From positions 41,001 to 105,000 of the forward strand of contig JBAMJV010008464.1 in assembly GCA_037951105.1 (NCBI GenBank): a DNA stretch of 64,000 nucleotides, read 5' to 3'. The notes under the pieces are model-generated. The model worked only from the letters and a program-made list of their open reading frames with translations, did not search any database and had not been told where the DNA came from. This stretch comes from Echinarachnius parma. Taxonomy: Eukaryota; Echinodermata; Echinoidea; Clypeasteroida; Echinarachniidae. This document shows, piece by piece, positions 13,601 through 63,000 of this stretch (positions are counted from its first letter, which is position 1; every line of letters starts with the position of its first letter). Position numbers and translations under genes: made by a program.

Positions 13601-16600
13601 ATTTTTTGAAATATTTTTTCTTTCATAATTTGTGAATCTTAAAAAGAATTACAAATAATCTACATTCTAACTAAAAAGGCTGATTCTTCTCATCAGTGGA
13701 CACAGTGTATTTGAGGGGGACTTCATGGGCTGTGCCCCCCCCCCCCCCCAATATCTCCCAAATTTGATAGTTTTGGAAATTCAGTCATCAGTAGAGTCAA
13801 ATAGTTTTGCAAAAGGCAATATTCAAGTCAAAGTTACTTGCAATCCAGGTGAAACATGTCTTCTTCTCTTCTTTTTTTGTTTTTTGTTTTTTTTTGGGGG
13901 GGGGGGGTGGGAAATGTATGTACAATTCTTGACAAAATCATATCATTTTCATGGCCGTAATACGTCCTATTCTGGCAAAATGAGTTGCAGGATCTGCAAT
14001 ATTGCCCAATTGCAGAATGTATTCTTAATTCATAGTGCATTTTCCTTGTTTCTTCTGTTCCCACCCCTTTTTTCTTAGCTGGAGACCTCTGTCAGTACCC
14101 CCCCCCCCCCCCCCCCAACCAAACAACAAACAAATCTTTCAATGACCTTTCATATGAGTTTATAACTACAGTCCAACCTGTCTATAGTGGCCACCCAAGG
14201 GAAACAAGAATAGTGGCCACTGTAGACAGGTGACATCTATAGACGGTTTCCATAACATTGTTTTTGTATGCAGTGGAACACACGCTGTGGCCACTAAAGG
14301 CAGGTTGACTGCTACAGACAGGTGACCACTAATACAGGTTTGACTAGAGTGTCTGAGCTTTCTATCCCAGGAGAATCTTCATCAGAGGTGAAACTACCAA
14401 ATGTGTAGATGAAATAAGCCTATTACTTATCCTAAGATATCCGAAATTTTCGGCTGTCATCTACAGCAAGTTTAAAATGGATATCTTATAAATTATCTAT
14501 ACAGATGAACTTTCATACTAATATTATTTATCCTGTTTACTATTTGTATCTGTATTGTATCTTTATAGAGTTTCTAACCAAGCTGCTGGAGTTGATATGT
14601 GGACAGTCATGGGGCCCAGTCACTATATTCTTCTTTGCTGAAGCCCTGGCAGCTATTCCCCCTTGCTCCGCCTGGGGTCTAGCATCACTGCATCTGTTGC
14701 GGTAAATATACTTTTTAAAATCTTCATATTTAAAGGGAACCGTCACCCAAATATATTAATTTACTATGTAATAGTACTTAGAAATTTAAATAGTCCATTC
14801 CACCAGCATCCATCGAAATATGTGTTACAAAATATATTTTATCCTTACTTTAACGACTACTAAACATAAACATCATCCACAATTGTTGCTCTCTACCCAT
14901 GTGTAATAAATAGTTACCATGGTCGGGTGTCAATTAGCCTTCGCGCCATTGGCAGCATATGGCTAGTATGCTCCCCAGGGAGTTGAGAAAGTATGCAATA
15001 TCATTGTGTGGGTTTGAACTGTAACTGATGACCATGGGTAATAATACTTGCGCTTAGAAACCCTGTATTAAGCGCTATATAAATGCAAGCTATTATTATT
15101 TATTATTATCATTCATGGGTCTTACAACAACAAAAACATTACACAATATCATATACAAATTCAAAAGAAACATACCAAATATATACAATATACAAATGCA
15201 AGGAAATATTATACATACTTTGCCTATAAAAAAAACATACAAGAAATGAATAAAGTGAAAACCCATTGTTCAAAATTGTGTGGTTATTTCTGTATAGTCT
15301 GATAGCATCTTCTTCCTTGCTGCATCCCTGGTATATATGCCTCGGTCGATGTCTTGCTTTGTTCATTTTACAGTCTAAATAGAATGTAATAACACAGTTA
15401 TTTGTGTGGTTGTTCATGTGTATGTTATGAGACTGCATTTATCGTGCATGATATGTGGTTATTACTTAAATTAGCATCTGATCACAATCTCCATTGTTTG
15501 CTAAAGCCCTGGCGTGTATTCCTTTTCGTCTTACCTTGGGGCTAGCATCACTCCATCTGCTGGTACAGTAAATATATAACTTCTTTTGTCCTCACTTCCA
15601 AACGAAAAAAGAAAAATATATAACTTCTTTTGTTCTCACTTCCCCATCTTTAGATATGTGATATTAAAATGAATTTACAAAATTCTTCATTGCATTAACC
15701 TTCCAGACTGTGATACTGTCATAGTCAGTGCTCGAAATTAGCATAAGCCCGCTGGCCCGCTGGCCCGGGGCCACTCAAATTTAGCTCCGGGCCACCAAAT
15801 TTCATTGATACTAAATTCTACTGGCCCATTCGGGCAACCAAATTTAACAGAATTTGTTATGTTTTCCTTTGTTTGGGGCCACCAGATTTAGGTTTCGGGC
15901 CACTCAAAGTTGAACAATCTTGTTTTTACTTACCCGACTGGACCACAAGGCAAAAAGCATTAGTGCACCATACATGTATCTTTCTTGACTCCCCCCCCCC
16001 CCCCCCCCCATATAAATCTAGTATCTGTTTCATTACTTTTCTCTCCGTCATTTCCTCACAGAGATAAGCTATTATCTGGTTTTCTGACGTACATCAGTGG
16101 CTACCATATCTCTATCCAATGTCAGGCGCAATCTCTCCCTATCTCCTCAATAACTTGGACAACATCTTTTTTTCTTATCATTACAAAGCTCTGACGTGGC
16201 TGTAATAAAAGGTTCATAGCTTGGCTTTCCCCTTGTTTCTTCATATAGACACAAGCTATCGTCCATTATTGTTTACGTACAACCAGCCAGTGCCTCATAC
16301 TGTGAGCAGATTTAATTTTCTTGTCTGTGACGCTGCCCTTACTTTCGTAGCTCTGTTAGGGTTTACTAATACTTTATTCTTTCTTTAACTGCAGTCAGAC
16401 CCACGTAGTGACTACCTGTCTATAGCAGCCACCAAAAGTGATCCCCTGAAGAGGATAACAGTGGTATGGAACCTGTCTATAGAGGTCACCTGTTTACAGT
16501 GGCCACGTTTCTTGTTTCCATTAGATGGTAACTATATATAACCTTGGGTTTGACTGTATTTTCCAAATATTTCCATACGGGGACAAGATTTTGTCTGGTT

Positions 16601-19600
16601 TTCTGACCTTCTCGCATTTACTATTATAAGTACTTAGGCATTCTTTGTTTATAACCATTGTCCAAATATTTATCTACAGGGACAAGCTTTCGTCTGGTTT
16701 TCTGACCTGCCCAGCCGGCTACCGCACATCCATCCAGTGCTTCTTACTGCGGGCGGGATTGAACCTTCTAGACTGGGATGCAGTATCGTTGCACCAGGTC
16801 TCCAGCCTGCTGGGTGTCTGCAGTGCGACCGAAGTCCTCAAGAGAGGCTCACCAGTCTGGCATGAGGTACAGTGACCTACCTCTACTCGCTGCTCCTTTA
16901 GCCCAATCATCCTTAGACTTAGCATGAAACTGCCTCTTTTCTATGAACACGAGGAGCCATATCTTTAAAACCCAACTAGTTTTAATAGTTTCATGCTTAG
17001 TCTAAGGATGATGGTGCTAACTAAACAGCAAGTAGGTTTCTAAGTTGTCAACACCGGTTAGTTGGATAAGCCTTTGTTACCTACTAAGTTAACCATAGTT
17101 ATCAACAAAAAAGACCCCCATTTTGCATACATAGCCCAATCATTAAAAAACAACTAGCATGGAACTATGCTAGCAATGTTGTATGCATTGTAGGTCCAGT
17201 TATAAACTTTCCTTCCTTCTGGTAGTTTACCTAAACCTTCCGAAAACCCTATGTCCAATCCGGGTTCCTTGCTTGAGATGTGCTTGCAAGAGGTCAAAGG
17301 CTACTTTCATATTGCCCTATCCCTCAGACATATTTGAATCCTGATGTGTGTATTTTCTAGGTCTGTCAAGCCCTCCAACAACTCACTGAAGCACACCCTT
17401 CTGAAAGTTTACCTAAACCTTCCAAAAAACCCATGTCCGATCTGAGTTCCTTACTCGAGATATGCCTGAAAAAGGTCAAAGGTTACCTTCATGTTGCCCT
17501 GTCCCTAAGACATATGCCTATGTTTGAATCCTGTTGTTTGTTTATTTGTATAGGTCTGCCAGGCCCTCCAACATCTCACTGAGGCTCACCCTTCTGGAAG
17601 TTCACCTAACCCTTCCGAAAACCCTAAGTCTGATCGGGGTTCCTTGCTTGAGATGTGCTTGCAAGAGGTCAAGGGCTACCTTCATGTTGACCCCACCCCG
17701 GGGCACGATGTGGGTGGGGACCTGCCAAACCCGGGGGAAGCTCAGAGAGTGGCAGTGACCATTCTGCTTGTAGCTGATGCGCAGCGTTCCCTCAGATCAA
17801 CAGATGAGTAAGTATTAGTGGACAAACTTTAAAGGGGTAGTACAGTTTTGGTAAGGCTGAGCTTTAGTAACCAAAACCTGCACAATAACAAACTAATAGT
17901 TATAACTCCACCATCGGATATATATATATTTATTGATATTTCAGCCATTTCTGAACCGATTTTGATCAAATCAAGTTTATTCTGTCATTAAAATTGTATG
18001 CTCTTTCAAATTTTACACTCAGTTTTTCATTATCTCACACAAAAAAAGTATTTGGTGCAGGCTCTCTATACCAAAACTGAACTACCCCTTTAAGGGTTAT
18101 GAAGAGAGCTTGTTCTTTCTCAATTTGTGTGTGAGTGTTTTGGTTGGTTTTCAATCCATTTGAAGAAAAAAAACACATTTAGTACCAGGTAATCAATGAG
18201 AATTATTCTCCTCCAAATGCTTGCATATTTGTGAATGTTGATAATTGGGCCTTATGTGGGTACCCATGAGATCAATTCCATAAGGTACCAGGGAATGAGA
18301 GTAACTTTATTTTCAATAATGACAAATGGGTTAACATGAAATACGAGCATGAAAATAAAAGTGTAAAATTAGGCATGTTTTTTCAAAGATTCAGTGGCTT
18401 ATACATGTATATAATTTGTTAATTGACCAAACCTTTAAAAAAAAGTACAAATACTTATAAAGTCAGACCCATTTTAGCCCTTAGAAATTACAAACAAACT
18501 ACAGCTACAATGAAGAAGATTTTGTTTATTGACCACATGCAAAACAAAATTGACAAGTACTGATAACGACAGACCCATTGTTAGCCTCTAGAAATTACAA
18601 GCAAATTATAGCTACCTTCAGTTAAAATTGTGTATTTTGCTTTTTGCAGGCCCATGTTCATATCAAGACTCCTCCAGCCTGTGACAGCGGTCTTGGGAAG
18701 GGTTGGTAGTCACGTGTATCTACACCCCCTCAAAGCAGACAAGGCTATCCAGCTCCTAGAGACCCTTCTCAGGGAATCGGGTCAACCTGAACATGGGAGC
18801 ATAGATGGAGGTATTGTAAGGGATTGATTTCATTCTTTAAAGGTATCTAGTAACTTTATTGATACATGCAAACACTGACAGAGGGTTGATACAATGTGTA
18901 TTTCTGTTATCTCTTATGTCCACTAAGTGATGCGTGAACATTCCATGGGAAATGAATGTCATATCACCGAGTAATGAGCGAACATGCTATTAGAGATATT
19001 ATCTAACTCATCGCACTGACTCTGAACAAAGTTGAAAGTCTCCCAGGGAGACTTTAAAATCCAAACACTTCAATCATAAATATCTTTACAACGAAAGAGA
19101 AATTCTGAAAATCAAAACATGTTCCATGCTTCGATGGTAATATGAATACAACAAGGTATGTGAGAACCACTAGAATTCTAAGTTCGCTTTGACCATGTTA
19201 AGCCCGGCGCAGACAGAGCCGACTCGACCCAATCCGACTAGTTTCAATCAGGCTAGAGTTGGGCCCGGTCGTTCGGAGCCGATTCACTGTGTTGAATCGG
19301 CCCCAACTGGCATCCGACTGTCTCTCGACTGGCAAAATGTGTGTTGCGAGGCACTGAAAACTGAGCCGATCTGATTGAAACCAGTCGGATCGGGTCGAGT
19401 CGGCTCTGTCTGCAGAGGGCTTTACTCTCTGCAATCCTGCTGGTGTAAATAATTTCTCATTTATTGCTTTCTTGCAGAAGTTATGCAGTGCCTTACATCC
19501 TTACTGGGCCAAACATTTGATGAGATTGTCCAGTATGTAATGCGATGGCTGATAGGCAATAGCCAATCTCAGGTAAGTTATTATTTCAATCTATACTTTT

Positions 19601-22600
19601 TTCTTTTTTTCTTCTTTTAAAATATTGTAAACCGATGGGAGATCTAAAGTAACAGGTGAACACAGTTGTTTACATGCGTTTAGAGGGACTGGGGCTACAA
19701 AATCGTTCCCTTTCCACTCAACTTTCTTGTGGACATTTTGACCATGAAGATGTGATATTGGTAGTTTAGTAATAGCAAAGAATAGTATCTTCAAGCCAAT
19801 GCCTACCTAGCATTGAGATCTGATTTCCTGACAGCTTTCTATTTTGTGTTTATTGCTGTTGTCTGTATTATCTTTTGTAGATGGTACATTTCCATGGAGG
19901 TAACCTGGTGAAAAATGAACATTATCAGCCTGTCTATTAACCCGTTTACCTCGAGATTCTGAAATCTCCATAGACTTTGTACGCAACCCACCCGGTTCCC
20001 GTAGTCAATGGGTTAAATCTGAAGGTCATGGATTCAATCCCCATCTCAGTCTGCTTCTCTTGTTTTTTCATGAAAACTCAAACATAATGTTGACGGGTAA
20101 AAATACAATCAATTAATTTATACCAGACGAAACAAAATGTAATAATTTCCAAATGATTTTAAAATCTATAACTTGTTTGTTTATTTTGCTATTAGACATT
20201 TGATGTTGGTCGTGTAGCCCTGTACAAGTCTTTCCTTGATGCTGTGGTTGCCTATGTAGCAAAGAGCGGTATCATCCAGCCAAAGACCTCCAAGTACCCG
20301 AGTGCAGTATCTGGAGTGGTTGACGGCAGGCGGCGTCTGTTGCAAGGCTGTCAGATGCTCATGAAGGGACAAGGCAGCGAGGAGGTACTATATTGTTACT
20401 GAAGTCATTTTATATTACTAATAATACAAATTTGTATGCCTCAGCCATTGAGGCATTGTTTTGGGGTTGTCAATCCGTACATCTGTACATACGTGCATCC
20501 ATCCCGTTTTCACCTCGCAATATCTTGAGAACCTTGTCATGGATCAATTTCAAACTTAGTAAGAGGGTTCATATCAGGGTGACAATGATCTGAATAAATG
20601 TTGAGGTTATGAGGTCAAAGGGCTCATATATGCAAAAAATAGTTGAAATTGCAATATCTTGAGAACGGGTCAACAGATTACCATCAAACTTGGTACCTGT
20701 ACGTTTTGAAAAGCCATTGAACTAGTAAGATTTTGGGGTCATGATGTCAACGGTCACAGGTCTCATTATATATGCAAAAACAGCTTGCAATCACATTATC
20801 TCAAAAACCAGTGTTTAGTGAAACAGCCCTGTTGTCATGGAAACTTAACATGGATATGCTTATTTTCATTGTTGTTATCGTCTTATTGTGTTTTTCATTT
20901 CATTGTTTTCCTGTATTTTTGTTTGTATATGTAGCTCTCAGAAAGCCAGAAGTGGTATCAGAGCTTTGTCCTGATGGCCCTGTTGTCATGGCAACTGGAC
21001 ATGGACGTGCTGATACACGATGCTCACATGCCTTCCTCAATGGAGATGCTGTCTGCGCTAATGGCTGTGGACGCAACAAGTACAAAGCCAAGAGAGATAA
21101 AGGACGGTATGCTCATGATTCTTATTACTACTACCGTAAATCTCCGTGTATAAGACGCACTTTTTTTCCGTCAGAAAATTTTCAAAGTGGGGGGGGGGGG
21201 GGGTGGGTGCGTCTTATACACTGGTAGAGCAAAAAAAAAAAATAATAAGATAAAATTTGTAGTCACCCTGTAGTCCTGTTGAGATTTACGGTAGTTGTTG
21301 AGACATATAGAGTACAGAAGCCATGACGTCATAAAAACACTTTTTTAGAATTTTCAAATTTGGACTTCATTTTCAGAAAGAGCATAACAAATAATGTCCT
21401 AATACCGAAAATCAAAGGAAAAGGTTACGTATTGGCTGAGATATGCCAATCCGAATGAATTTTACTTCAATAGGCAATCAGTGTTATAGTGCACTGGTTC
21501 CTAAATTTAGGAACCAGTGCACTATAACACTGATTGCCCATTGACCAAAAAATCATTCGGATGGGCATATATCAGCCAATACGTAACCTATTCCTTTGAT
21601 TTTTGGTATTTGGACATTATTTGTTATGCTCTTTCTGAAAATGAAGTCTAAATTTGAAAATACAAAAAAAAATGTTTATGACATCATTTATGACATCACA
21701 CTTCACCACTCTATAGGTCGAGGGGCAACACTGACAGTAGATCCCAAGTCATTGGTTGAGAAAGAGAGGGGTGCTAAGTCACTTATTGTACTTCTGAGAA
21801 AAATCACGTTTGAAAGCTATGTACAAACCGAACCGAATATCCATGTAGCTCTATTTTATGTTTGATGAATATTCCCAAAATACGACATAATTACTACATG
21901 AACGAGGCGCATCACAATGAGAGGAGGCTCGAACTTACAAGATGGTTTGCATTACTCAGTTTTGCAACAACAACAAAATGTCCTCAAGCCCTTAATACCA
22001 CCCTCACCCAACAAAATCTTGTTTTGTTTTATCATTTTGTAATCAGGCAGAGGTGCAGACCGCCCTGACCGAGGCAGGCTACAGTCTGATCTGATATGCA
22101 GCAAGTGGGAGGCCATGTTGGCTGTGGTGAAGCGATTATGTGCTCCAGGATGCAGTGCTGGAGACGGGGAGAACACGGATGCAGGAGATCGGAAGAGGGA
22201 GGAAGTGGGAGCTATAGAGAAGAAGGAGGGCCCTGGAGATGAGAAGCAGATGGATACGGTTACCTGGCAACAAGTGCTATCAGCTTGTGTAGCAGACATA
22301 GGCCTTGTTTCTGCTGTTCACGCAGTGCCTCTCTTGCAGTGTGCTGCTATCCTTATTCCCAAGGTAATCAGCCTTGCATTGACTTGGGCTTGGAGAACAT
22401 TTTTGGAGGAATTATTTTTGCAATTTGCAAACATGAAATCTGACAAATACTTATCTCTTTAGACAGAGTTTTCACTTCAAAGTGTTTGTGAACTAAATGA
22501 TAGCATCACTGTAGTGAAAAGTTGTATTTAATATCAGATCTAACGGCACATTCGGGTGTGTCTACACAGGTTGCTCAATGTGACGTTCATTTTACTTGTA

Positions 22601-25600
22601 TTATTATTATTGTTATTCTTTGGTATTCTGAAACAGGTCATTGATGCTAACATGCCTCTATGTCTAGAAGCATCGGCCGCTGCATGGTGCTCGGTTCAGG
22701 ATGGATGGAGATCTAACCTCACATTCTGGTGCGTCTACGAAGCTTTCATTACCCTAGTCTTTCAACCGGCTCTGCTGCAGTATGGAGAGGACACAGAAGT
22801 CTTTGAAACATTACAGAAGGTAATCCAATCTATATTAAAAAACTAAGTACATTACTGTACAGGAATAATGATTTCATTAGGAAATAACACTATATTTTTT
22901 AATGTGAACTAAGATAAAGTAAATAATATGCAAGGAAAGAATTTGAAAACATTTATCATAAAGTATATAGTTGTAATGATATTTCATTTGGAAATGTTTG
23001 TAGTACTGTTTTGATGATGTTATCTGACTTGATCAAATATTAGTCAATGATTGGCTAAACTCAGTCATGTGATGTCAACTTGATTCAGTATGTTCACCGC
23101 ATAACTGTTATGTCTCACCCCTCAGAGCAGCGATTGATCATTTTCTTATTCTTTTCTCAATTGTTATCCTCATGTTATGTCCAGTACACCAAGAAGATCC
23201 TGGCACAAGGGGAGACACGACTAGGCATGCTCAACTGCCTGCTGTCCCACCTGGCCAGAATGCTCCACAGGGAGTTCTTTGCGGTCTCTCCTGACCTGCG
23301 TAGCTGTGACGCCATGAGCATTGTTTGGAACCTCTCTGGCATTTTGCAGGAGGCAGCCTTGTTTGGTCCGGTTATCAGCAAGTCAGTCAGGTAAGGACGG
23401 CTTAATGCATGATCCCATGTAAAATACATGTACAGTCAAACCTGTCTTAGTGGCCATCTGTCTATTGCAGCCAAACGACCTGTAGTGGCCACTGCAAGTG
23501 TACCTTTGCAGAGAAAAACATTGTTATGGAACCTTTCTGTATCCCCTAGGAGGTCACTATACACAGGTTTGATTGCAGTTGGTTAATAAATAAACAAAAA
23601 TGAGCAAATAGTATTTGGCTTCACAGGGAATCAAACCTGAGACCTCCAGATTGCTAGACCAAAGCTCTTACTATTGAGTCTCCTTGTGCCAAGGTTTCAC
23701 GCACCATGCAAGCATAATGGTATAGGTTTTCCCATCCATTTTAACACTTTTGTCATTCAATTTATAAATTTGTACTTCAATTTCGTCCCGAGAAGCCGAG
23801 AATGTGCCAATGCCAACTTCAATTTCGTCTTTTTTCGATCAATTTCACAAAAAGTCCATTCAATTTAGTCATTCATCACGCATTTTTGTTGATTACAATT
23901 CAAATTCGTCTGTCACAGTTGCTGAACGCATCTGTGACTGACGAATTTGAATTGTACTGGACGATAATGTGCGACAAATGACTAAATTGAATGGACTTTT
24001 TCTGAAATTGGTCGACAATAGACGAAAGTACAAATTTATAAAATGAATGACAAAGGTGTTAAAATGGACGGGAAAACCTATATTAAAATAGTATTGGTTG
24101 ATAGTAATCAAGAGATCTCATATTCTATTCCTCTCCACACTCCATTTATTTAATATATACCTGGTCTGCTTCCCCTATTATAAAGACAAACAATAAAATA
24201 CATTTTAATTCAGTTCAGTTCATGTTGTAAAATATATGCAGAATTTTCACAGTATAAAGTAAATTTAATTCACAATGTTATAAAAAGACTAATTACCTAA
24301 GTAGATTTAGAATTGTCATTTCAAAAGGGTTGAAAAAAAAAAAAATAGCCACTCTCTATTAAATAAAACCTTTCAGATTACGATCTTAGCCCAATAGTCC
24401 ACAGAAGATTATACGTTAAATATGGAGAAATTATAAAAACGAAATGAGATACCTATACCTTTGTAATTATATTTATTTGTAGAATTCAAACATAGAGGAA
24501 ACTTACTAGTAATATTTTAAATGATTGAAAATGAGCAAAGCAAAAAAGGCTTCGCCGTGAATCGAACCTGAGACCTCCCGATTGCTAGACCGGTGCTCAA
24601 CCCATTGAGCCACGAATATGATATTTTATTATATAAATTTATTATATTTATTTGTATTAAAGTGAAGTGAAGATATGTTTGTTTATATCTGTCTCATAAA
24701 CTTTGCCCTTTTGGTCATTTATCTGAGCAGGTTGATGGAGGATGTGTCTGCATATCTTCTGCAACATGAAGGACTTGATGCAGCAAAACCCATTATTCAG
24801 ACTAACAGGTAATATAACCTACATAAACACCAGGGGGGTGTTTCACAAAGATCCTAAGACTTACAATTTATGGAAAGCCTTTAGTTTCTTTTTTTTTAAT
24901 GTTGAAAAGTTATTTGAAGAGTCATAAGATGTTGATTTAAATCATAATGATATTTTCTTTTATCAAGATTTTATGTTCGTGATGTAAATATTATGAAAGT
25001 CTTAAATGCTTGCATTCTTGCTTTTGAATATATTTTATTTCAAGGCTACAAATGGCTTTCCATAATAGTTAGGTCTGACTTAGAGTAAAGTTCAACTTTG
25101 AATCTTTGTGAAACACCCCCAAGAGCTGCTGATATTCAATTCAATATTTAAATCAAGTATGTTATTGTGAGTCTTGTCATCGGCAGAGAGTGTTGGACAA
25201 AGCACTTTCAGAATAGTTAAATGTTGATCAAGCTTTTGATGCCTATAATGATAATAATGCATGATATGCCTTGTACTTTATGCTACATTAGGCGATGTCA
25301 CACAGGAAAAAATTATCTAGATAACTTAATTATCTAGATAATTTGTAGCATGTCTGTCACATACATAGGTGAATTATCTAGATAATTGTGTGTGACACTG
25401 GCTATTGAATATTATACAAAGACCAGCAGGGTCACAGAGAGGTGACATTCCAAGTTGTTTACAAATCAGTTGTAAATTTCAACCTGTCATATCACATTCT
25501 AGCCTTGTTTCTTCCATCCCAGAAGAGACATTCCTCCTTGTTTACAAATTGATTGTAAATTTCATCCTGTAATTCCACATTCTTGCCTTGTAAATTTCAA

Positions 25601-28336
25601 CCACCAGCTGTAAGTCTTTTACAAGGGGTTGCATATTTCTATAGTAAATTTCCTTCATTAATGATGAAAATTAACAAGAGTGCATTCCAGTCTGTTGATG
25701 ACAGGATGTGTGTAGATTTCATCCTTGTAGAGATAGTAGATGAATGCATACTTTGAATGTACATTTCAGGGAGACCTGTCAATCATCTGAAAGAAAGATC
25801 TGTCAATCATTGTTCAGGTTCAGAAAGTAAAACTGGAAAGAGCCACGAACCTGCCCTACTTATAGAGTAGTAGTACTTGTACTACAAATCTTTAGATACT
25901 AATAACACTTTTTGCGTACTAATGATTATACATGTAGTTTGTTCTTTATAAAACTTAAAGGTGCACCTGTAAAGTGTCAGATATTGCCCAAAATGACATT
26001 TGAGACTTCAATCCTATACCAAAATCATTGTAAGAAATGTCCGAATGATGTGTGAAAGTTTCATTGAAAAAGAAAACTGCTTTCCTGGTTAAAAAAGCGA
26101 AAATTTGCGTCAGCTTTTACAACAAATTATTGTATGACGTGTATGAGGTTTATGACCGTTCATTAACGCTCTTGAGCTGAATGATTATCAATGATAGATA
26201 TCGTCATACTAAAGGGGCATTTGAAAAAAATCTTACCCTATTTTATTCTTCTCTTACCATAGGCCAAACAACACGGTAGAAGAGAAACGTGGAAGCTCAA
26301 ATTAATTTTTGTGAAGTTAGACACTTTACAGGTGCACCTTTAAGATGATGTGTGTATCATTTTAGTATTTTCTTTTACACTATTTTATACAGTGATACAG
26401 TCAAATTATTAAAAAATTAAGTGCACATTTTTAAAACTGTGCAGGGAAATTGATCTATTAAAAAAAAAAATCATTAATGACTGTGATTTATGTATAACAT
26501 GCATTTCCATTAACACATATGAGCATTTTCAGGGCCACCTTTATATCATTAATCAAGGGGGTGTCTAGATGGCTGACCAATGAAAATACCAAAGTGTACC
26601 AGATCTCAGAGGCTGATATCTGAACCCGTTCTGAACTGGGCCCCAAAATAATCAGGCTTGGGTCTATGGAAAATGCATGTTATACCAAAGTCGAATTGTT
26701 TGAATAGGTTAACCATTTATGAGCCTTTGAGATCTTGTAATTTCTATTAACTTGAATACCTAATGCACAAAGTTCAGGTAGGCAATGGGTTAAAAATAAC
26801 ATATATATATATATTTTCCCCTGCAGCAATTCAAGCAATCCACGCTACCCAAGGGTCTACGCACTTGAAATCCTGATGCAAATTGGAACAAGTGACTTGG
26901 AGGGAAAGGAAGAGTTCTTTGAGCATTTCATCATTAACTTATTGGAAAAGGTAAAACTTTCGACTTTAATAAAACTGTTGACTGCTGTCGGGATCAGCAA
27001 ATTTGACATTATTTTATACAAAAAGGAATAATTATCAACTTTTGCCTTTGCCAACCCCTGCACACATACAAAATTTGATTCACCAGGAATATACAAATTC
27101 AATCATTATATGAGTGTCAGTATTTCCCTGGAGAAATGTGCGGAAACCTTGAAAATGTAGTTTCTTAAGTTAAGGGTAGTAATATTTGATAGAAACGCAT
27201 TAATATGTATCTTATTAAACAGATTTAGGAACAAATATGTGTACGACATAATAAGTAGAACATGCATTTTCATAACTGGCAATTTGAAGATATGGCATGT
27301 TCTTCAGAAAAATTCATTAAAAAAAATAATTCATTTTAAAGTTTGGCTTTCCTCACTCTTCACAGCAGTGTATCATTGGATGAAACTGATTAACCAAGCA
27401 TTAATACCATGGTGATATCTTTGTATTCTACAGGTGAATGAATATGTGACCGGCTATAGCAAAACCCTGCAATTGCCGTTTTGAAGAAATGGGCATTTTA
27501 AGTTCAGATAATGATTTTGATTTTTTACCGACAAGTGCAGGGTTTTGCTATAGCTGGTCACATATAATAAGAAACAATGACATTCCATCTCTAGTAGCTC
27601 TATGCTTTATACAGGCAGTCACTATACACAGGTTTGACTGTATATTGTTCAATAATGATGCGTGTCTTCGTGACATTTTACTGCAAGTATGTACTCCACA
27701 GTAACTTTAATGAATCAACTTTTGTTCATTTTACCTACATGTACTAGGACCAAGAAATAACTCCGCCCAAGAGGAGTTACATCATCAACTCATCGGTCCA
27801 TCGGATCAAACTACGTATCTGGCAGGCGGTTATTGTCATTATGCACTTCATGAGTGCGGTAAGGAGACAAAGATACACTTTTAGTTTTAAGCCCGGTGCA
27901 GACAGAGCCGACTCGATCTGATCCGACTGAATTTCAGTCAGGCTAGAGTCCGTTTCGCTCAGTCGGAGCCGATCCAACATGTTGAATCGGCCTTGATTGA
28001 TCTCCGACTGGCACTTGACTGGAAAAACTGGAGTCCTGAGGCAGCACTTACTGACTGAAAACCAGTCGGATCGGGTCGGGTCGGCTCTGTCTGCGCCGGG
28101 CATAATGAAACTCATCTTTATTATAACAATTTTTTTTTTTTCACACTTTGATATCAGTTTAGTTAAGTTCCGTTCAGTTTGTTTTATTTTCTAACAAAAT
28201 GTCAAATATATAGCATTGTACAAAACAATAACAAACAAGTTTACATCCAATTAATGCCCATGAAAATGTTAGTAATCCTTGAAAAATAATTTAAAACATA
28301 TCACTTCCTGTTTAATCCTGCTCGTCTTGAGTGAGA

Positions 28337-37732: not shown

Positions 37733-38195
37733 ATACCTTGGACTAACATGATGGACTTGCACTACACCAGTCAATAACTACTTCAGTCGTGATGATAAAA
37801 GAGTTTGCTCTTCAAGGGTTTACATTAACATCATTTCATCAAGTCGGTTAACTTTCAGAAAAGCAGCGTCTGGGAGTTTATTAGGTAGAAACTGCTGAAA
37901 TGAGATTGAAGAACTCTAGGTCTCGGTTTAATGCCTAAGAATGATATAGTGTGACTATGTTTTCACCAAGTTTGCCTGTATGAGGCTACTCATTGTCCAT
38001 GTTAGTGGTGTGCTGATTATCTAGGAGTACACTTGAGTTCTGTGATATATGAGTAAGAAGTCATGACATCCAAGATTTCTATGCCACCATACCTTGGAAT
38101 TATTTAATTGATCTTCATTGTTCTTGTGAGCCGTGCACTGATGATCTGGGAATAAATGCACCAAAAACTAATTCAGTAGAGACAAACATTATTTT
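37733..38195 (+). pseudogene. three decayed copies of the TARBP1 terminal exon
   Basis: About 37733-37800 (ACACCAGTCAATAACTACTT, CAGTCGTGATGATAAAAG), 37985-38060 (CTACTCATTGTCCATGTTAG, TGGTGTGCTGATTATCTAGG) and 38107-38195 (GCCGTGCACTGATGATCTGG, CACCAAAAACTAATTCAGTA) each match parts of exon 22 (37606-37690), downstream of the stop. Confidence 0.8.
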
Positions 38196-40960: not shown

Positions 40961-41575
40961 GGCTGCCATGGCAAAAAGCATTGCCTGGAGACGATATTTC
41001 ATCATCATGCTGCAGAAAGATTGGTGAAATAAAGCTTTCAATCAATACAAGATTGTCAGTGGAGTAAAGTCTTTCGTTCACCAAAGCCATGTATCAAGAT
41101 TCATTCAACATCTAGCTGCCGTGGATATAATCGTGTCCTTGAGGGGTCTTGGAGACTTTTGGCTAAATTTTGCCCTGGAGACCAAGATTCCTAATCATCG
41201 CGTTTGCAGAATGATCGGGTGATGATAGGCCATAAACAGAGAGGAAACATTCTGGCCTTCGTTGCAATGATGGTTGTTAGCCTGAAGACCGTGTCTCCTC
41301 AGTATCACAACAGCAGTATGGTAATTTAATTATTCTTTTGTTCTCCAAGGCTATGGATATGATCCTGTCCTTGAGGGGTCCTAGAGCATTGGTTGCCTGG
41401 AGACCTTAACTCCTCATCATCACGGCCGCTGGGTTGTCACCCAGGCCATGGATCAAGAAAACAAGAAAAACGATTCACTTACTAGCAACCTTGGATAAGA
41501 CCCTTATCTGACCCTGAGGGGTTTGTTGCCTGGAAACCAACGTTCTTAATCATTATGCTGCACAATGATCCCTGA
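40961..41575 (-). pseudogene. four decayed tandem copies of the COQ6 terminal exon
   Basis: Minus-strand matches to exon 9 at about 41500-41575 (MIKNVGFQATN), 41345-41445 (DNPAAVMMRS, stop [20 protein letters not shown]), 41110-41210 (MIRNLGLQ) and 40961-41015. Linking sequence is also repeated (ATTATCACAACAGCAGGATGG at 41655 against AGTATCACAACAGCAGTATGG at 41301), so blocks of roughly 360 bp were copied. The best copy keeps 17 residues identical except for the stop. Confidence 0.85.
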
Positions 41576-51517: not shown

Positions 51518-51546
51518 CTGAGATGTTCACAATAAATCCGTGGCAT

Positions 51547-52891
51547 TGTTCGATTATTCAGTTATTTACACGAAAGAAAACGAAGATGTTAGATGGCACT
51601 GGACGGCGAATTGCGTGCACCCAATTATGTAGATCGACAAATCTATCGCTTTCATGGCCTTTTTGACATTATTATTGTTATTTTCACTGTCGGCATTCTA
51701 GCGATCGACGCTATCTATACACTCTGCCTTGCGCAGTAAGAACACCGTAACTCGAGAGTAAAAGTTAGTTACGGAAAATGATTTTTTTGTTCATATAAAA
51801 CACCACATTCTCACACTTTGACCGACATTTGTAGCCCTATCAATACATTTAGGGCTGCTATAGTATATTAACTCACCGATCTCGTGTGTCGCTATACATG
51901 TCATTCTATAATTACGGCGATTTGTGATATTTTCCACGATTTTCCATGTTTCTTCATCGGTCTTTCGCGGTACTTTTTGTTCAAACTGCAAAAAAAAAAA
52001 ATATAACGTGCATCCGTATGCGCGAACACTTTTTCAGAAACTTAGGCAGCTAGGTACGGTACAGCGCGCGCGCCGCAAAGCTGCTATACAGAACTTGAGC
52101 GCGCCAAGTTATAGCAGCTTTGCGGCGCGCGCGCTGTACCGTACCTAGCTGCCTAAGTTTCTGAAAAAGTGTTCGCGCATACGGATGCACGTTATATTTT
52201 TTTTTTTTGCAGTTTGAACAAAAAGTACCGCGAAAGACCGATGAAGAAACATGGAAAATCGTGGAAAATATCACAAATCGCCGTAATTATAGAATGACAT
52301 GTATAGCGACACACGAGATCGGTGAGTTAATATACTATAGCAGCCCTAAATGTATTGATAGGGCTACAAATGTCGGTCAAAGTGTGAGAATGTGGTGTTT
52401 TATATGAACAAAAAAAATCATTTTCCGTAACTAACTTTTACTCTCGAGTTACGGTGTTCTTACTGCGCAAGGCAGAGTGTATAGATAGCGTCGATCGCTA
52501 GAATGCCGACAGTGAAAATAACAATAATAATGTCAAAAAGGCCATGAAAGCGATAGATTTGTCGATCTACCAATTATGCACCCACAGTATTATGGCGATG
52601 CAGTGTACGATTTCCGACACGCTCTTGATGAGCGGTGTGGTTACGAAACTCTACCTTAATAGGGATCACATCAAACGTTCAACATGAAGAGCTATATTTT
52701 ACTTCTTTTCTTTGCTTAGCCAAAGCGAGTACTATTTCAATATTATGTATTTTTAAATTTATTTTACATTGATACAATCAGTAAATTACATCAGAAATTA
52801 CATCAATCTCTAACAAAAATTCTACAAAATATGTTGTTTCGAATTTGATTCCTTGTCCCTGAATGTCACATGATAATTTTTCTCGATCGAG
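51547..52891. promoter_or_regulatory. divergent COQ6/COMMD1 intergenic promoter region with inserted foldback
   Basis: The two genes are head to head, with about 1.35 kb between coding starts. Of this, 940 bp is the foldback transposon at 51630-52569. Without it the starts would be only about 0.4 kb apart, typical of a bidirectional promoter. No TATA box is evident close to either start. Assignment as a promoter is inference from geometry. Confidence 0.55.
51621..52578. mobile_element. 940-bp Mutator-like foldback transposon with 9-bp TSD
   Basis: Element 51630-52569 with target duplications CCAATTATG at 51621-51629 and 52570-52578. The arms are about 455 bp each and virtually identical, meeting near 52099 around a roughly 20-bp spacer. 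Each arm encodes the same 66-aa frame (51791-51991 minus; 52207-52407 plus) containing VPRKTDEETWKIVENITNRR. The outer 70 bp match the 142-bp element at 6634-6775. The inner GGCGCGCGCGC stretches are very GC-rich. The frame is not recognised; it may be captured host sequence. Confidence 0.9.
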
Positions 52892-55800
52892 ATGGCAGAA
52901 GAGGAGGAAACGACGAAACTATTTGGGCTGCTAACTGGGATTGCCAAGCACGATTACCTTGGCTTTCATGATATTTCTGATGGGCTTTTGAAAGGAGAAC
53001 TGTATCCAGATTTCCAAGAAGATGAATTTGCAATCCTTTTGACAAAATTTAGAACTTTAATCAAGGTATGACATTGGCTTATTTCCTTTTCAGTCCCGTA
53101 TGCAGTGTTTTTGTGTAGTGTTATGCGAGTGCAGCTAGATGCTTGTACTAGATGTATTCATTTGGAATTGAAACGAGTATAGATGTTTTTTGGGTATTAT
53201 TTTATATTGTTTGCCATGATCATACCTGTAATCATATGGACAAAATCTTTAAAGAATGTGCATGCTGGTTTATTTGGTTATATAATGTTCCATGTTACAA
53301 CTAGTCCTAGTCACAATTGCAATTCTGCTAATTAAAGTGTAATTTCCTTCTTTTTTTTTGCTCCTTTCAGAATGTTGTTTCAATTGATATGGACTTCAAT
53401 CAGCTTGAAGCATTCCTGTCATCTCAGATGAAGAAGAGAGAAGGAGCTATCACACAAGCACAGGCAACCGCATTCACTAAGTTCTGGCGAAGCAATCGAG
53501 GAAAGATCCATGACAAAGTAGTCTCACAAGTAAGTACATTTCAACTGCAAGAGCAATCTTTCTCTTTATTTTGTAGTATGGCAGATAATGCATGTATATA
53601 CATGTACTCACATCTACTAAAGTAAATGGTCCAATCAGTTGGACCATTTATACGTTAATACGCTGGAGATGAGCATACCGCCCATTTGTACACTGTACCG
53701 TTCAACAGTTGAACGCTATGTTTTAGGACGCATCGGTAAGGAAAACGGACGGGAAATAATCTTTTTTTTCCTACATTTTGCGGTCTTCAAAACAACAGAG
53801 TCAGTAATTATTATCAAAGTATATGAATTGTGGATCACATAAACAAATTTTTTTTTGCATTTGCTGGTAAATGGAGGGAGAAATCGGCCGACAAAAAATG
53901 TTTTTGTGTTTGATATTGCAGCAGGCGGAAGAGGTTGATCTCCGCACAGCGCTATTGTAATGAACCTATGTGTGCATGTACTGACTTCCATCAAAATTTG
54001 ATTTAATGTTCATGGGGTTTGTTTTTTCCAGTCGTGTTGAGGTCATTTATTCCAGGATAATAATGATTTTGAAAGGAAGATTATTCACTTTGATTTTGAA
54101 CACTTTTGAAGAAATATAATACATTTCCAAATAATTCAAAATTGTACATTATATTATTTTTACTTGCAAGATAAGGAATAGAATAGGAGCCTTATTGCTA
54201 GTAGTTAATTTGTTATGTTCCTTTATTTCTGACAAACTATTAAAACATCTGATATTGGATATTCAGGGCTCTCCCTTGCTTTTCTTTCAGGTGTCCAAAA
54301 TTACACATCCGATATACTCTCACTATAGACTAGTGTGTTGTAAGAGCGTAATTTGTTGTTGGCCAATACAGAGTTTCTAGCCCGTTTCTTGTGGCCAAAT
54401 TAAATTTCAGGTGGCCATTGGCAACCGGGCCACTGCTAAGGGCGGGCCCTGATATAATTATCAATATTACACGTTTTTGATGATGATCAGAGTATTATTA
54501 CTGATGTACATTTTTTAAAATTATTTTTCAATCTTGATACAGTCAGTATTTGGCAACACACTAAAGGATTTGAGCTGGAGGATAGACATCAAGAGTCAAG
54601 CAAGACACATAGATCAAATCAACACACCAACTGCCATTGTAGAACTCAAAATAGGCAACACAATTCAACCAAAGGAGGTAAGTTTACTAATGGTGTAACT
54701 CATTAAGACTATGTGATTATGTTCTGGTTTAACATGTATTCTGCATTAACCCCAGCCCAAGTATGTTCATGACAAGTCTTGATTGGGTTAACCTGTCCCA
54801 AACAATATGATTTTGATATATTGTGCATGAACCAGACCAGACCAGACCCTGTATTTTTTTTGCGACCAGCCCTAATCGAGTTAAAAACTTTATTCTCTTG
54901 TTCCAATAGGCCGGGTGTCTATTCCTTGTACTTTTCCTATAAATCGTCAATTTATATTTTGACATGAATGAAGTACTGTACAAGTGTTTAACCCTTTGCT
55001 GGTCTTGTTATTTTGCCTCAAAGATCAAAACCTTGTTAGTTAATGAATGTATACCTTTTCAAATTTGTGCACTTATAATTTGGCTTATAATGCAATTGTG
55101 ATCAGAAATGCTGTGTTTAGTATGTATACTATAGTCTAGAGGAACAAATTATTCTGTAAGAACTGTGCAAGTATTTTCACTTTGTAAGTCTTGTTATTTT
55201 GTCTTAAAATAAATCTGCATAAGTTTGAGCTGGGTTTTTTTGTGTTCTTTTCTCACTTATCTGCCACCATAAAACCTAAAAACCTTTAATGCTTTGCTCA
55301 TATTTTAAATCTATTTTTATGCCTCCGCAACGAAGTAGCCGGAGGCATTATGTTTTCGGGTTGTCCGTCCGTCCGTACGTCCGTCCGTACGTACGTCCGT
55401 ACGTACGTCCCGTTCTCGTGATCGCGTTATCTCAAGAACCGATTGACGGATTTTCACCAAACTTGGGTCATGTATGTATCTTGGGGTGCCAATGATCTGA
55501 TTAGATTTTGGGGTCATGAGGTCAAAGGTCAAAGGTCACAGAGCTCATTATATATATGCAAAAATAGCTTGTGATCGCGTTATCTCAAGAAGGGATTGAC
55601 AGATTCTGACCAAACTTGGTACATGTATGTATCTTGGGGGGCCGATGATCTGATTAGATTTTGGAGTCATGAGGTCAAAGGTCACAGAGCTCATTATATA
55701 TGCAAAAATAGCTCGTGATCGCCTTATCTCAAGAAGGGATTGACAGATTCTGACCAAACTTGGTACATGTATGTATCTTGGGGGGCCGATGATCTGATTA

Positions 55801-56417
55801 GATTTTGGGGTCATGAGGTCAAAGGTCACAGAGCTCATTATATATGCAAAAATAGCTCGTGATCGCGTTATCTCAAGAACGGATTGACAGATTCTGACCA
55901 AACTTGGTACATGTATGTTCCTTGGAGAGCCAATGAACTGATTAGATTTTGGGGGTCATGAGGTCAAAGGTCACAGGGCTCATTATATGTAAAAGTAGCC
56001 TGAGATTGGAAATCTCAAGAACTGAATATCAGATTTCAATCCAACTTGATACCTGAATGTATCTTAGGGAACAATTGTAGTCATTAGATTTTGGGGTCAT
56101 GAGGGCAAAGGTCAAGGTCACTTATAGCTCATAATTGTGATACGTCAAGATCTAAAAGACAGAGTACCATCAAAATTTATTTGACAGAATTAATTCTGTG
56201 TACATGTTGATTTGGGCTTGATATGAATAAATTGCGTAATGGCGGAGGCATCATTTTCGACTGCGCGCAGTCGAAGATCCATCTAGTTTCTCTCTTCTTT
56301 CCTTTCCTTTCCTAGACATGTGAACATTTACGATTTGAGATGGATGAAACGCAACTCAATCATGTCATCGGGAACTTGGAAGAAATTGAAAAGCAAATTG
56401 TAGCCCACTGTCAGTGA
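52892..56417 (+). CDS. COMMD1: COMMD1 (COMM domain-containing protein 1), 4 exons
   Basis: Exons 52892-53065, 53371-53529, 54543-54677, 56316-56417, all in phase 0; 189 aa, against 190 in human. In vertebrates COMMD1 is part of the Commander/CCC complex that recycles endosomal cargo, including copper transporters, and damps NF-kappaB. Residues 1-110 form the helical N-terminal part (LFGLLTGIAKHDYLGFHDIS). Exons 3-4 encode the C-terminal COMM domain, beginning at the conserved Trp (LKDLSWRIDIKSQARH), through TPTAIVELKIG to FEMDETQLNHVIGNLEEIEK. The ATG in CGAGATGGCAGAAG has a purine at -3. Intron 3 carries a Helitron-like element ending 29 bp before exon 4. No local exon copies were seen for this gene. 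Confidence 0.95.
54262..54452. repeat. 'GGGCCAGT' repeat copy in COMMD1 intron 2
   Basis: GGCTCTCCCTTGC, GTGGCCAAATTAAATTTCAG and GCAACCGGGCCACTGCTAAG, then GGGCGGGCCCTGATAT. Confidence 0.5.
55310..56286 (+). mobile_element. Helitron-like non-autonomous element with internal tandem repeats
   Basis: Begins TCTATTTTTATGCCTCC and ends with an 18-nt hairpin TCGACTGCGCGCAGTCGA, eight bases, then CTAG followed by T. This layout (5' TC, 3' hairpin plus CTRR, A/T insertion, no TIR or TSD) is that of Helitrons. Inside are a GTCCGTACGT-rich tract (55365-55415) and about four tandem units of roughly 150 bp containing TATCTCAAGAACGGATTGAC, TGATCTGATTAGATTTTGGG and AGGTCAAAGGTCACAG. A diverged copy is at 20430-20820. 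Confidence 0.75.
55518..55975 (+). promoter_or_regulatory. array of AGGTCA-type direct repeats (DR1)
   Basis: AGGTCAAAGGTCA, the consensus DR1 site for RXR/HNF4-type nuclear receptors, occurs in each tandem unit of the Helitron-like element, and twice overlapping in the first. The match is exact to the known motif; binding or function is not shown. Confidence 0.5.
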
Positions 56418-57050: not shown

Positions 57051-57064
57051 ATTGCACTAGGGTT

Positions 57065-57155
57065 TTCTATAGCTCAGGTGGTAGAGCGCCGGTCTAGCAA
57101 TCCGGAGGTACCGGATTCGAATCCCGGAGGAATCCCATTTTCTTTGCTCTTTTTC
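57065..57155 (+). repeat. tRNA-Ala(AGC)-like SINE
   Basis: A box TAGCTCAGGTGGTAGAGCG, anticodon loop CTAGCAA in stem CCGG/CCGG, B box GGATTCGAATCCC, and 3' tail CCCATTTTCTTTGCTCTTTT identical to the SINE at 8218. The anticodon and T arms fold well, but the acceptor stem does not, so it is probably a SINE head or tRNA pseudogene. Confidence 0.7.
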
Positions 57156-57229
57156 ATTTATAAAATATATTATTTGAAATGTCCGAAATGTATATTTTGT
57201 CTGACGAATGTCATTATGATGTCAATATA

Positions 57230-57322: not shown

Positions 57323-57336
57323 ACATTTTGGTTTCC

Positions 57337-59278: not shown

Positions 59279-59296
59279 CCCCCCCCCCCCCCCCCA
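59279..59296 (+). repeat. poly(C) tract
   Basis: About 18 C in a row. Confidence 0.9.
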
Positions 59297-59577
59297 TCCT
59301 CCTTTCCCCCGGATGGGAATTTTCACTCACCTCCTCATTGAAGATTAAATAATAATGACAGTAATAATTCAATATTTTTGACTGAGTGCTGCCCCTTGAT
59401 CGCTGCTGAAGCTTTATGCATTTGACTGAGTGATGTTTGAAAAGAAAACTTTTGTTCTATTGCCAATCATCATTATACTGGTCCCAGAAACAAAGTATGA
59501 TGCTATAAACGGTCCCACAAATTGATGACCGAAATTGCATCAAACTTTAGTCCCTCAAATGCATGATAGAAACGTAA

Positions 59578-59590
59578 GTATGTGTGTGCA

Positions 59591-59653
<63 letters not shown>

Positions 59654-59708
59654 GTGCGCGTGTGTGTGTGTGTGCGTGTGTGCGCGTGTGTGTGTGTGCG
59701 TGTGTGCG

Positions 59709-59739
<31 letters not shown>

Positions 59740-59740
59740 A
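59578..59740 (+). repeat. (TG)n microsatellite with GC interruptions
   Basis: About 160 bp of TG dinucleotides with periodic TGCG variants; Z-DNA-prone. Long Cys/Val or Thr/His frames across it are artefacts. Confidence 0.97.
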
Positions 59741-60021
59741 GGGGTGAATGTTTACTTGGTTCAAATTTCTGTCAGAGATGAAACCATCATCCTTCGTTAT
59801 TCTTGTCAACACATCGATTACATTTTGCAATTATTTGTCAAGCTACAGCCAACATGTCACACACCCGTCACACAATAATAAATTGCTACATGAACTCATA
59901 AAGCTTTAGTAATATATATTATTATTTTCTGAAAAAACGATGAAAATTGTTCAAATGGTTCTATTTAAAGGCACGTTGACTTAAATATCTTCATAAACAT
60001 GGGTCATGTGAATGACTTATG

Positions 60022-63000
60022 TCAAAAATATTGACTGCCGAATTTGAAAATGAATGCGACTAAAATCAACACCACAGAAATACACGCAGCAATGACAGTG
60101 AGGAAATAGACGAGAAATTTGTGGACAAGCCGGTTCGAGGTGTCGTCGACGCATATTTCATATCCGTAATTCCATTCTCTCTTCCGAATGTCCACGTGTA
60201 TATTCGTGAAGAGTGTTGATAATGAAATCCGAGTTCCAGGCGGATATCGGATGGCTGATAGTCCGTCGAATGCCATCCGCTTTTCTGAGTGTTTCAATAG
60301 GCAGAATCTGGAAGAAACGTATACAAAATATAATAGTTTATATTTTGTTTACATACAATAAAGTGCATTATTCGTTGTTATATACATTGATACTTTTATA
60401 ATTGTAGGCATCTCAACTGTACGGATTGCAATATATTATTATATCAAACACGTTTGATATATAGGTCAATCTATCTTTAAATTTAGTTATCATGAAATAT
60501 TATTTCCATTCCGCTCATGGTATGAAAATTTAATTCTCAATTCTGGTCACTATAGGCAGTTTGGCTGCTATAGACATTTGGCAGCCTAAGCAGGTTTTGT
60601 ACTGTATTTTTGTTTTTATTATGCAATGAATGCGATAATTGATCACCTTTCACGACAAGCCTCCCTCCTCGTGCTCTTCTTGTGGCCGAGATGGCGATAG
60701 AAGCCGTCGTCGCCGGGTCTCGTGATGTTGTAATGGAAGGACATCGTTCTGCTTAATACATCGTCGTCTTCGCCTCCCCAACCCCAGTACATGTTGGAAT
60801 AGCCGTTAATCCTCTCCACTTGATCCCCAGTTAATCCCACCACGCCGCCGAAACTGTCAATAAAGGGATTACTGCATGCATATAAGGAAAATGGTTAATC
60901 ATTATCGTGATAAACATTGTCACAATGTTCCCAAATATATAGCATAATTCATAACGCTATTAAGACATACTTTTATTAAAGGGAGAGATCCACTTTTGCA
61001 AGCCAAAATTCAAAAGTTGCGAGGTTATTGTCTTATATGAAAGGAAATGTCATTTAATAGCATGCCTGAAAAAATTAGGGCTTGAAATCTCTTTTTCGTG
61101 GAGTTATAGACCTAAAACTTAATAAACTGAGGGACGTCGGTTAATTAGGTACATACGTATTTTCGGCCGGTGAGTAAGTTCGTACATAGATTTCACGGAG
61201 TGCCAGATCGATATGCATGACCCCTACGTGACCCGCGCTAGCTACGTGACCCGCGCATAAGTACTAATGTGTGAGCGTTTACCAAGTAAAATACCCAAAC
61301 ATCGCTTAAACTGACTACATGTAATTATATATTCTTTCTTTTTGAGATCTTTTTCCGTGACATACGTTAACAAATGTCGGCTTCACAATACCTTTACGAG
61401 AATTAGTACTATATAGTGTTGTAATGTTATGCTAAATCAGTTGAACTCCTTTATTGACCGATATATAGTTTAAATGGAGGGACGCATTCGTTTTTCATTC
61501 GTAGAATCCAAATTAGAGGGCTGTTCGCTCTGATTTTTTTTTGCGTGTTACATTGATCCCCATCCGTCAACTGAAAGCTGTTCAGACGTTTTGTAAAAGT
61601 GGACCTGTCCCTTTAAGGGGGGGACCTAGGGCCATGCCCCCTACCAATTTGTCTTAGCTCGCCAATCACCCCCCCCCCCCCCCGCACCCCATCCAACACC
61701 ACAATATTATTGCGGGTTTATACAGTAATGAATACAATAAATCGGCAAAATCATTACATTCTCGAAGGTAAATTCATTTAGGCATCTACAAAATATTGAC
61801 ATTTTTTGTTTGCTTGTCGAGTGAAAACCTGACTCCTACCCATCTATGAAATCAACCACTAAATCACATATAATTGAATTCTTCCATCTTCGTCGCATGG
61901 TGCTTGGAAAACCCGTCACAGTCGTAGCAAGTTGGATGTGTTCAATCGACATCGATTTGGCGTCATTTTAGAAGCCACTTATACATTTTCTCAGTGAAGA
62001 CTTGTTTGTGTTGTGCTTGGCAGGTGAAAACCTGACTCCTTCCCACTACTGACATATACCGTAGAACACCATCGTCAAGCACCCCCCCCCCCCCCCCCCC
62101 AAGCACCTATACGCATATTGCTTTTAAAGACGTTTCCATGAGATTCACCTCCATTATTATCCTCATGAATATTCCTCACCATTATTTGCATTCTTGATTA
62201 AAGTTTACCGTTTGGACAGAGAGCGGGCGCTCTTTAAAAGCAAGATGCATATTGGTGCTTGGGGGGTGCTTGACGATGGTGTTCTACGGGTATATGCCCT
62301 TCAATCACATAACATTGTGAAACCAATTCCACTGTATGTATAATAAAGCTCAAGTCTATAAAAAAATCACCTATAATTAAATTCTTCAAGCTTCGTGGTA
62401 TAGTGTCTGGGAAACCCGTCGCAGCCGTAGTAGTTGGTCGTGTTCATCGGAACATAGTCGACATCGTGGAAGATGTAGCAGTCCCACTCCGTGCCGCTGT
62501 TTCGCGCCAACTGGTAGCCGATGTTGCGCATCATACCGCGATTCATCACCTCGGAATGACCCTATATATATATATATAGAAAGGGGAAAATCATATTAAA
62601 AACGGCGAAAACGGACGATTTGCTTGGAATGCAGACTACCCCTCACTTGTGTAAATCTCTGCCCGGCTGCCCCCACACCTCCCCCTTTTTGGGGGGCCTG
62701 TTTTAAGAAAATGCAGCAAATTTATACGTATCACTATTGTAATTGGTTTTATTTTTTGAAAGGCTGTAAGAAAAACATCGTATATGGCCCCAAAATTAAT
62801 AAGTAATAATCTCTATTAAATGATTGGTTCGACCTCTCGAATCAGTGAAAGAAGTGACGAAGAAAGATACAATTTAGAACACAGAAAGGAGGGGCGTGTT
62901 GGAAAGAATATATAACTTTACTTCCCGTCCTTTATAAAGCTTATATTTCCCGGGATTTTTCCCCAATTATCGAAATGTCGATCTTACTTGTTCCGCAACA

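Follow-up and report, generated by a model that had tools for sequence, protein, structure and literature searches.

What process leaves coding exons of an animal gene flanked by partial, decayed copies of themselves? The question is raised by a stretch of 64,000 nucleotides from the echinoid Echinarachnius parma (assembly GCA_037951105.1, contig JBAMJV010008464.1, positions 41,001 to 105,000 of the forward strand), referred to here as the window, in which all coordinates below are counted. Four animal genes lie in it: TARBP1 (+), COQ6 (-), COMMD1 (+) and a beta-1,4-galactosyltransferase gene, B4GALT (-). An earlier note, made from the letters of this DNA, had claimed that three of the four genes carry decaying local copies of their exons on the same strand. 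The claim is borne out: 11 of the 34 mapped exons have a same-strand local partial copy with a score of at least 40 (range 40-255), each exon on one side only, while control scores do not exceed 35. In our opinion, the copies probably stem from small tandem duplications that crossed exon edges again and again, that is, from the phenomenon termed "mirages" in amphioxus or from its equivalent in another animal.

Partial copies of mapped exons

The query for each exon, the exon itself with 40 bp of sequence added at both ends, was aligned to the 2 kb flanking it on the left and on the right, on both strands and under one scoring scheme throughout. Masked sequence comprised a TG run, a satellite, a G-run and long homopolymers, and 2-kb blocks at a distance of over 6 kb served as the non-local control. 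The top non-local score for the 34 exons was 35, and none of the 34 scored above 33 against the local reverse complement. A self-comparison with blastn, akin to the dotplot that the earlier note had proposed as a check, recovered the same exon/copy pairs. The exon copies are real, local and on the same strand.

The positive exons are distributed as nine of 19 in TARBP1 (T2, best score 62; T3, 69; T4, 188; T7, 46; T9, 40; T16, 59; T18, 109; T19, 255; T20, 65), one of nine in COQ6 (exon 9, 128), none of two in COMMD1 and one of four in B4GALT (the DVD exon, 88). T9 and T7 are the weakest of the 11. The list of exons in the earlier note largely stands: T2, T3, T4, T16, T18, T19, T20, COQ6 exon 9 and the DVD exon all have copies, the TARBP1 exons it had numbered 18, 20, 21 and 22 being our T16, T18, T19 and T20, with two fewer exons between. 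For its "exon 8" no clear counterpart emerged: T8 scores only 25 and 20, while the neighbouring T7 and T9 have weak copies. That COMMD1 is free of copies is correct for its two mapped exons, which are too few for the contrast to be informative.

Twenty copies score at least 40, at offsets of 99 to 862 bp within the 2.5 kb searched. The upper end of the 0.1-1.4 kb range given previously comes down to 862 bp within that distance. In this count T16 contributes one copy, made up of two alignments. Two weaker alignments fall outside the count: one to T3 (16276-16333, score 36), which would be its third copy, and a match of 22 bp in an intron near T20 (score 39). Altogether, copies aligned at 80% identity or better exist for 657 of 5971 coding bases (11%).

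It should be noted that the exons were placed independently of the copies, by open frames, splice-site score and continuity of phase; T7 (phase-consistent) and COQ6 exons Q2, Q5 and Q6 (from frame lists only) were placed by eye. The TARBP1 map comprises 19 exons, T2-T20, at 14569-37684 on the + strand. Exon 1 was not found in the mapping of the window, and one exon may be missing from the map between T12 and T13. A candidate exon at 25625-25750 was dropped: the phase-2 donor of T11 joins the remainder 1 of T12 directly, and the splice sites of the candidate are poor. COQ6 is represented by nine exons (about 51517-41738, - strand), COMMD1 by two (+) and B4GALT by four (-). TARBP1 is identified by a match to human 2HA8 (E 9e-62), T18 lying inside the matched methyltransferase part; COMMD1 by COMMD1_N (E 4.4e-35); and B4GALT by B4GALT1 (E 1.1e-22). 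For COQ6, the query consisted of pieces of the nine exons joined by eye, with the copies left out, and matched TIGR01989 of NCBIfam (E 2e-148) over residues 4-416 of 421; two shorter COQ6 fragment queries found no match in Pfam.

The side rule and the structure of the arrays

An exon edge is included in 14 of the 20 copies, without exception the one that faces the copy (nine of nine exons; sign test, 0.002). The edge is a splice site in ten copies and the stop-codon end in four. No copy among the 20 has both edges, in agreement with the earlier observation that copies usually lack the distal exon end; if the unit duplicated in tandem crosses one edge, this end would be missing by construction. 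The companion claim, that the copies include intron sequence next to a splice site, holds for those ten; the others have the stop-codon end (4) or no edge (6).

Acceptor-type copies are found upstream of T3, T4, T16, T18 and T19. T3 (16680-16866) has two copies of its 5' edge, one at 16558-16609 (offset 99, 87% identity), in which the acceptor AG is lost, and one at 16058-16121 (offset 618, 74%), in which it is kept. T4 (17554-17807) is intact as the last unit of a contiguous array, preceded at 17215-17493 by two tandem copies of its 5' part in units of about 182-193 bp, the second of which keeps the acceptor AG; Tandem Repeats Finder (TRF) describes the array as 2.5 copies of period 193. The copy of the 5' edge of T16 (32566-32834) lies at 32330-32422, carries an internal deletion that splits it into two alignments, and keeps its AG. 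T18 (35188-35312) likewise belongs to a contiguous array, with a self-alignment 322 bases long, shifted by about 180-194; its 5'-edge copies lie at 34979-35078 (offset 163, 79%, AG kept), 34784-34885 (offset 356, 83%, AG kept) and 34350-34415 (offset 804, 79%, AG lost). Upstream of T19 (36254-36390), the youngest copy (36020-36164, offset 207, 95%) comprises the acceptor and 118 of the 137 exon bases and is followed by about 62 bp of filler; an older copy lies at 35897-35951 (offset 371, 89%). The upstream copies of T7 (20935-21104) and T9 (22637-22819) are derived from the exon interior and are short (20826-20863, score 46) and very short (22536-22565, score 40), respectively.

Donor- or stop-type copies are found downstream of T2, T20, COQ6 exon 9 and the DVD exon. 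T2 (14569-14701, placed by acceptor, donor and phase) has a copy of its 3' part and donor at 15482-15576 (offset 862, 74%), and the DVD exon (62371-62561, - strand) has one of the same kind at 61861-61952 (offset 503, 80%); the donor GT is kept in both. The two remaining cases concern last exons that end at the stop codon. The 3' end of T20 (37531-37684) is followed at 37749-38185 by three copies (37749-37800, 37988-38032 and 38125-38185), and that of COQ6 exon 9 (41738-41934, - strand) by three more within 41093-41561 (41452-41561, 41350-41438 and 41093-41202).

This arrangement suggests the following scheme. Short stretches, of about 100-200 bp in the closest arrays and more for the farther copies, would be repeatedly duplicated in tandem; the closest copies have offsets of 99-207 bp. 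A unit lying over an acceptor would give a repeated block of intron end and exon start, in which the intact exon closes the array and the copies lie upstream; a unit lying over a donor or a stop codon would leave the intact exon as the first unit, with the copies downstream. Such duplications would be tolerated, as the complete exon survives and no copy keeps more than a single splice site: if splicing follows exon definition, it would ignore a half-exon that has no partner site. The copies would then decay close to neutrally, and those derived from exons would outlast purely intronic ones as recognisable sequence, the original being constrained. We infer both tandem duplication as the birth event and tolerance through exon definition from the features of the copies. 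The data do not discriminate between replication slippage, template switching and unequal exchange.

Several results weigh against this scheme in its simplest form. Whether similarity runs on past the aligned blocks was assessed in 18 comparisons, nine on the flank side and nine on the exon side. Flank-side extension is clearly positive in two of nine (T3, z 6.0; COQ6 exon 9, z 10.2), while the other seven have z of at most 1.7 (T2, 1.7; DVD, 1.0; T16, T18 and T20, 0.5 or less). Extension is not expected on the exon side, and there none of the nine exceeds z 2.6. The copies of T2 and DVD, 862 and 503 bp away, have no residual homology past the donor. Moreover, the youngest pair, that of T19, ends abruptly on both sides (z -0.5 and -0.4), with unrelated filler between the two members; the best match to this filler within the window scores 27, taken as chance level. 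The sharp edges together with the filler mean that a clean head-to-tail duplication is insufficient for that pair. For T19, T2 and DVD, junction filler, later insertions or non-contiguous birth must be assumed; for T16, T18 and T20, as also for T2 and DVD, the choice lies between later insertions, faster intron decay and a non-contiguous copy.

An alternative origin is dispersed local template switching, similar to fork stalling and template switching (FoSTeS) or microhomology-mediated break-induced replication (MMBIR), in which short exon-edge pieces would be copied a few hundred bases away and not strictly in tandem. Both the filler at T19 and the absence of flank-side residual homology, at the well-separated T2 and DVD and also at T16 and T20, speak for it. 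Free insertion, however, should place copies on either side of an exon, whereas every edge-copied exon obeys the side rule, and T4 and T18 are contiguous arrays. We consider this origin of the copies unlikely.

Exonic and exon-free duplications

Local matches are by no means confined to exons. Of the in-gene intron segments, 38 of 150 have a local same-strand match scoring at least 40, a count to which transposons and the exon-derived copies contribute, as compared with 11 of 34 exons (Fisher P 0.40). Reverse-orientation local matches were found for 33 of 150 intron segments and 0 of 34 exons. Local direct repeats free of exons are also present in the window. The event list produced by script contains 18 exon-touching alignments, 17 non-exonic and 10 repeat-like; read by hand, it resolves into 11 exon loci and 7-8 exon-free loci (at 186; 7640 with 9226; 18415; 25438; 34103; 47777; 54971; and, weakly, 52750). 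In this reading T2 was moved by hand to the exon group, its repeat tag being due to the span-filling rule of the mask, and non-exonic alignments near T16, T18, T19, COQ6 exon 9 and DVD were assigned to those loci.

The balance of these loci is a further point that uniform duplication followed by differential decay does not readily accommodate, unless the assumptions of the model are at fault. A whole-window simulation in which duplication was uniform and detection biased predicts that 16-24% of events touch exons, as against 11 of 18 or 19 observed (P <=0.002 across 12 settings, with repeat-rich sequence kept on the intron side). Similarly, in a rotation test confined to TARBP1, nine of 12 events touch exons as compared with a mean of 3.7, a value reached by 0.24% of rotations. 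These results favour an active bias, by which exon boundaries would be duplicated more often than introns, for example through transcription- or splicing-linked breakage. On the other hand, once exon-derived copies are given a 1.8-2x detection advantage, the TARBP1 test yields P 0.03-0.05, rising to 0.06-0.09 without T9 and to 0.11-0.15 without both T7 and T9. It includes three non-exonic events, and the repeat-like direct repeats 34496/34634 and 37212/37386 were omitted from it; their inclusion would weaken the test. The retention of repeat-rich sequence in the simulation and the comparable frequency of local matches among intron segments, given above, likewise speak against such a bias. Exon-derived copies stay recognisable longer because the original exon is under purifying selection; part of the exon excess is accordingly a detection effect, purely intronic duplicates fading up to twice as fast. 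The residual excess is suggestive, not proven, and it is doubtful that exon boundaries are preferred sites of continuing tandem duplication beyond what slower decay accounts for. If they were, the steady supply of half-exons could seed new splice sites, exon extensions (such as an in-frame one at 36047-36253 in TARBP1) or new introns.

The window also contains other repeats and mobile elements. A direct repeat of 470 bp (7640-8107 and 9008-9478, 88% identical, 1.37 kb apart) lies outside the mapped genes. Between COQ6 exon 1 and COMMD1, at 51629-52570, is a near-perfect palindrome of 942 bp, 98.7% identical to its own reverse complement; it is probably a fold-back transposable element, because its ends match 6711-6775. 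A 144-bp satellite (55415-56114, 4.8 copies), with a relative at 20577-20808, contains AGGTCAAAGGTCA exactly in five places; with up to one mismatch this motif has eight matches in the window, six of them in the satellite, against 0.08 expected. Its spacing resembles that of a nuclear-receptor DR1 site. An open frame of 402 aa at 2877-4085 (-) encodes a retrotransposon reverse transcriptase (RVT_1, 4.5e-24 on a 264-aa part). Two tRNA-like matches, at 8268-8341 (47.7 bits) and 57063-57134 (37.9 bits), lie in stretches 82% alike and are possibly tRNA-derived short interspersed nuclear elements.

Decay of the copies

The copies are at different stages of decay, as had been claimed: mismatches in the exon part range from 4/118 (3%, T19) to 15/59 (25%, a T3 copy). 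The youngest pair, that of T19, differs additionally at 3 of 27 intron bases, and among the other 19 copies identity to the exon is 69-91%, one 25-base alignment of T16 reaching 92%. Mismatches by codon position amount to 46/446, 52/444 and 98/448. The pooled ratio of nonsynonymous to synonymous divergence between exon and copy (dN/dS) is 0.44 (bootstrap by exon 0.38-0.52) at a transition/transversion rate ratio (kappa) of 3, the value estimated from 113 transitions and 75 transversions. A ratio of about 0.5 is expected if the copy evolves freely while the original is strongly constrained. At kappa 2, the ratio is 0.40 (0.35-0.47), somewhat under this expectation, which tells against entirely free evolution of the copies. 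Another result does not fit the scheme well: aligned intron parts are not more substituted than exon parts (47/307 vs 196/1338, Fisher P 0.79). A stronger divergence of the intron parts is thus unsupported by substitutions within the aligned blocks, and only their short reach fits it. The copies decay nearly neutrally, with room for slight constraint or gene conversion.

The lower ratio at kappa 2 bears on the proposal that selection maintains the copies, be it as alternative or mutually exclusive exons or as regulated decoy splice sites. The acceptor AG is kept in six of the eight mapped acceptor copies and the donor GT in both donor copies, and there is no stop in the aligned exon part of 16 of the 20 copies. 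Furthermore, the copied acceptor of T19, at 36047, would give a predicted in-frame, stop-free extension of 69 codons (36047-36253) to the conserved methyltransferase part of TARBP1. Against this, no copy of the 20 has both splice sites, five premature stops occur in four copies and exon-part indels in nine, both copied donors score below the original ones, and the dN/dS range at kappa 3 includes the value for a neutral copy. Nothing here is a good sign of a coding function, even if use of the copied T19 acceptor might add its 69 codons, and we regard maintenance by selection as very unlikely.

Still less credible is an assembly artefact, i.e., collapsed or mis-joined haplotypes. Allelic divergence in a highly polymorphic animal may reach the range of about 95% identity, within which the T19 pair could fall; the other 19 copies are too divergent for that range, and the flanks of the T19 pair differ. 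Besides, similar repeats in lancelet PGBD5 were upheld by re-sequencing (PMC3902484). Retro-insertion of pieces of spliced mRNA is ruled out by the ten copies that carry intron sequence adjoining the splice site.

Relation to known duplications and implications

The closest parallel to these copies is provided by amphioxus. Mirages are described there (PMC3087553, PMC3902484) as tandem repeats spanning exon/intron boundaries in genes for globins (BflGb6, BflGb9), Adh3, PGBD5 and, by citation, troponin C. In the globin genes, according to PMC3087553, the units are 150-160 bp long and occur at both exon edges, copy number differs between two haplotypes, and regular splicing is undisturbed; a model for intron gain is also offered there. 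Shared with amphioxus are same-strand tandem copies over an exon/intron boundary at either exon end, here boundary-spanning in 14 of 20 copies when stop-codon ends are counted, and the intact exon at the end of the array, as seen in the phase-consistent exons and in a COQ6 product that is near full length without the copies. The unit length is of the same order, 99-207 bp for the closest copies here as compared with 150-160 bp in the globins and 60 and 108 bp in PGBD5 (PMC3087553, PMC3902484). Head-to-tail contiguity is variable: T4 and T18 are contiguous, T19 has filler, and T2 and DVD are far apart with no residual homology. Unlike the amphioxus examples, the copies described here are mostly old and decayed (69-91% identity) and often non-contiguous, include the stop-codon end of a last exon in two cases, and, within a single window of 64 kb, affect 11 of 34 exons.

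Two other known processes are less similar. Tandem exon duplication and mutually exclusive exons share with our case the local same-strand duplication of exon sequence; here, by contrast, none of the copies amounts to a whole exon flanked by its two splice sites, and the dN/dS at kappa 3 gives no indication of coding constraint, weak constraint being compatible with the value at kappa 2. In the creation of introns by internal tandem duplication (the proto-splice-site model; PMC2891723 connects tandem duplication with new introns of Drosophila), coding sequence by splice signals is likewise duplicated and one copy turns non-coding; the duplications described here span existing boundaries, and no new intron is seen. 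Partial and degenerate duplications of exons occur often enough for dedicated tools to exist, and Exonize (PMC12343006) surveys exon duplications including partial ones and intronic remnants. A survey at >=80% identity (PMC9013439) gives about 2% of human exonic nucleotides and less than 0.1% in fly and worm; comparison with the 11% found here is a rough one only, as methods and filters differ. No genome-wide survey of mirages was found in the literature on such repeats, which is not proof that none exists.

Thus, the recurrent local duplication process suggested by the earlier note is supported by graded ages and tandem anatomy, but it is not new, mirages having already been published. The boundary-spanning copies are of an already described kind; what stands out is their density, their graded ages and the copies of stop-codon ends. 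The same exons are accompanied by copies of many different ages, a dated series of how boundary duplications arise, are tolerated by splicing and decay, and this series could show whether such duplications ever become new introns or exons.

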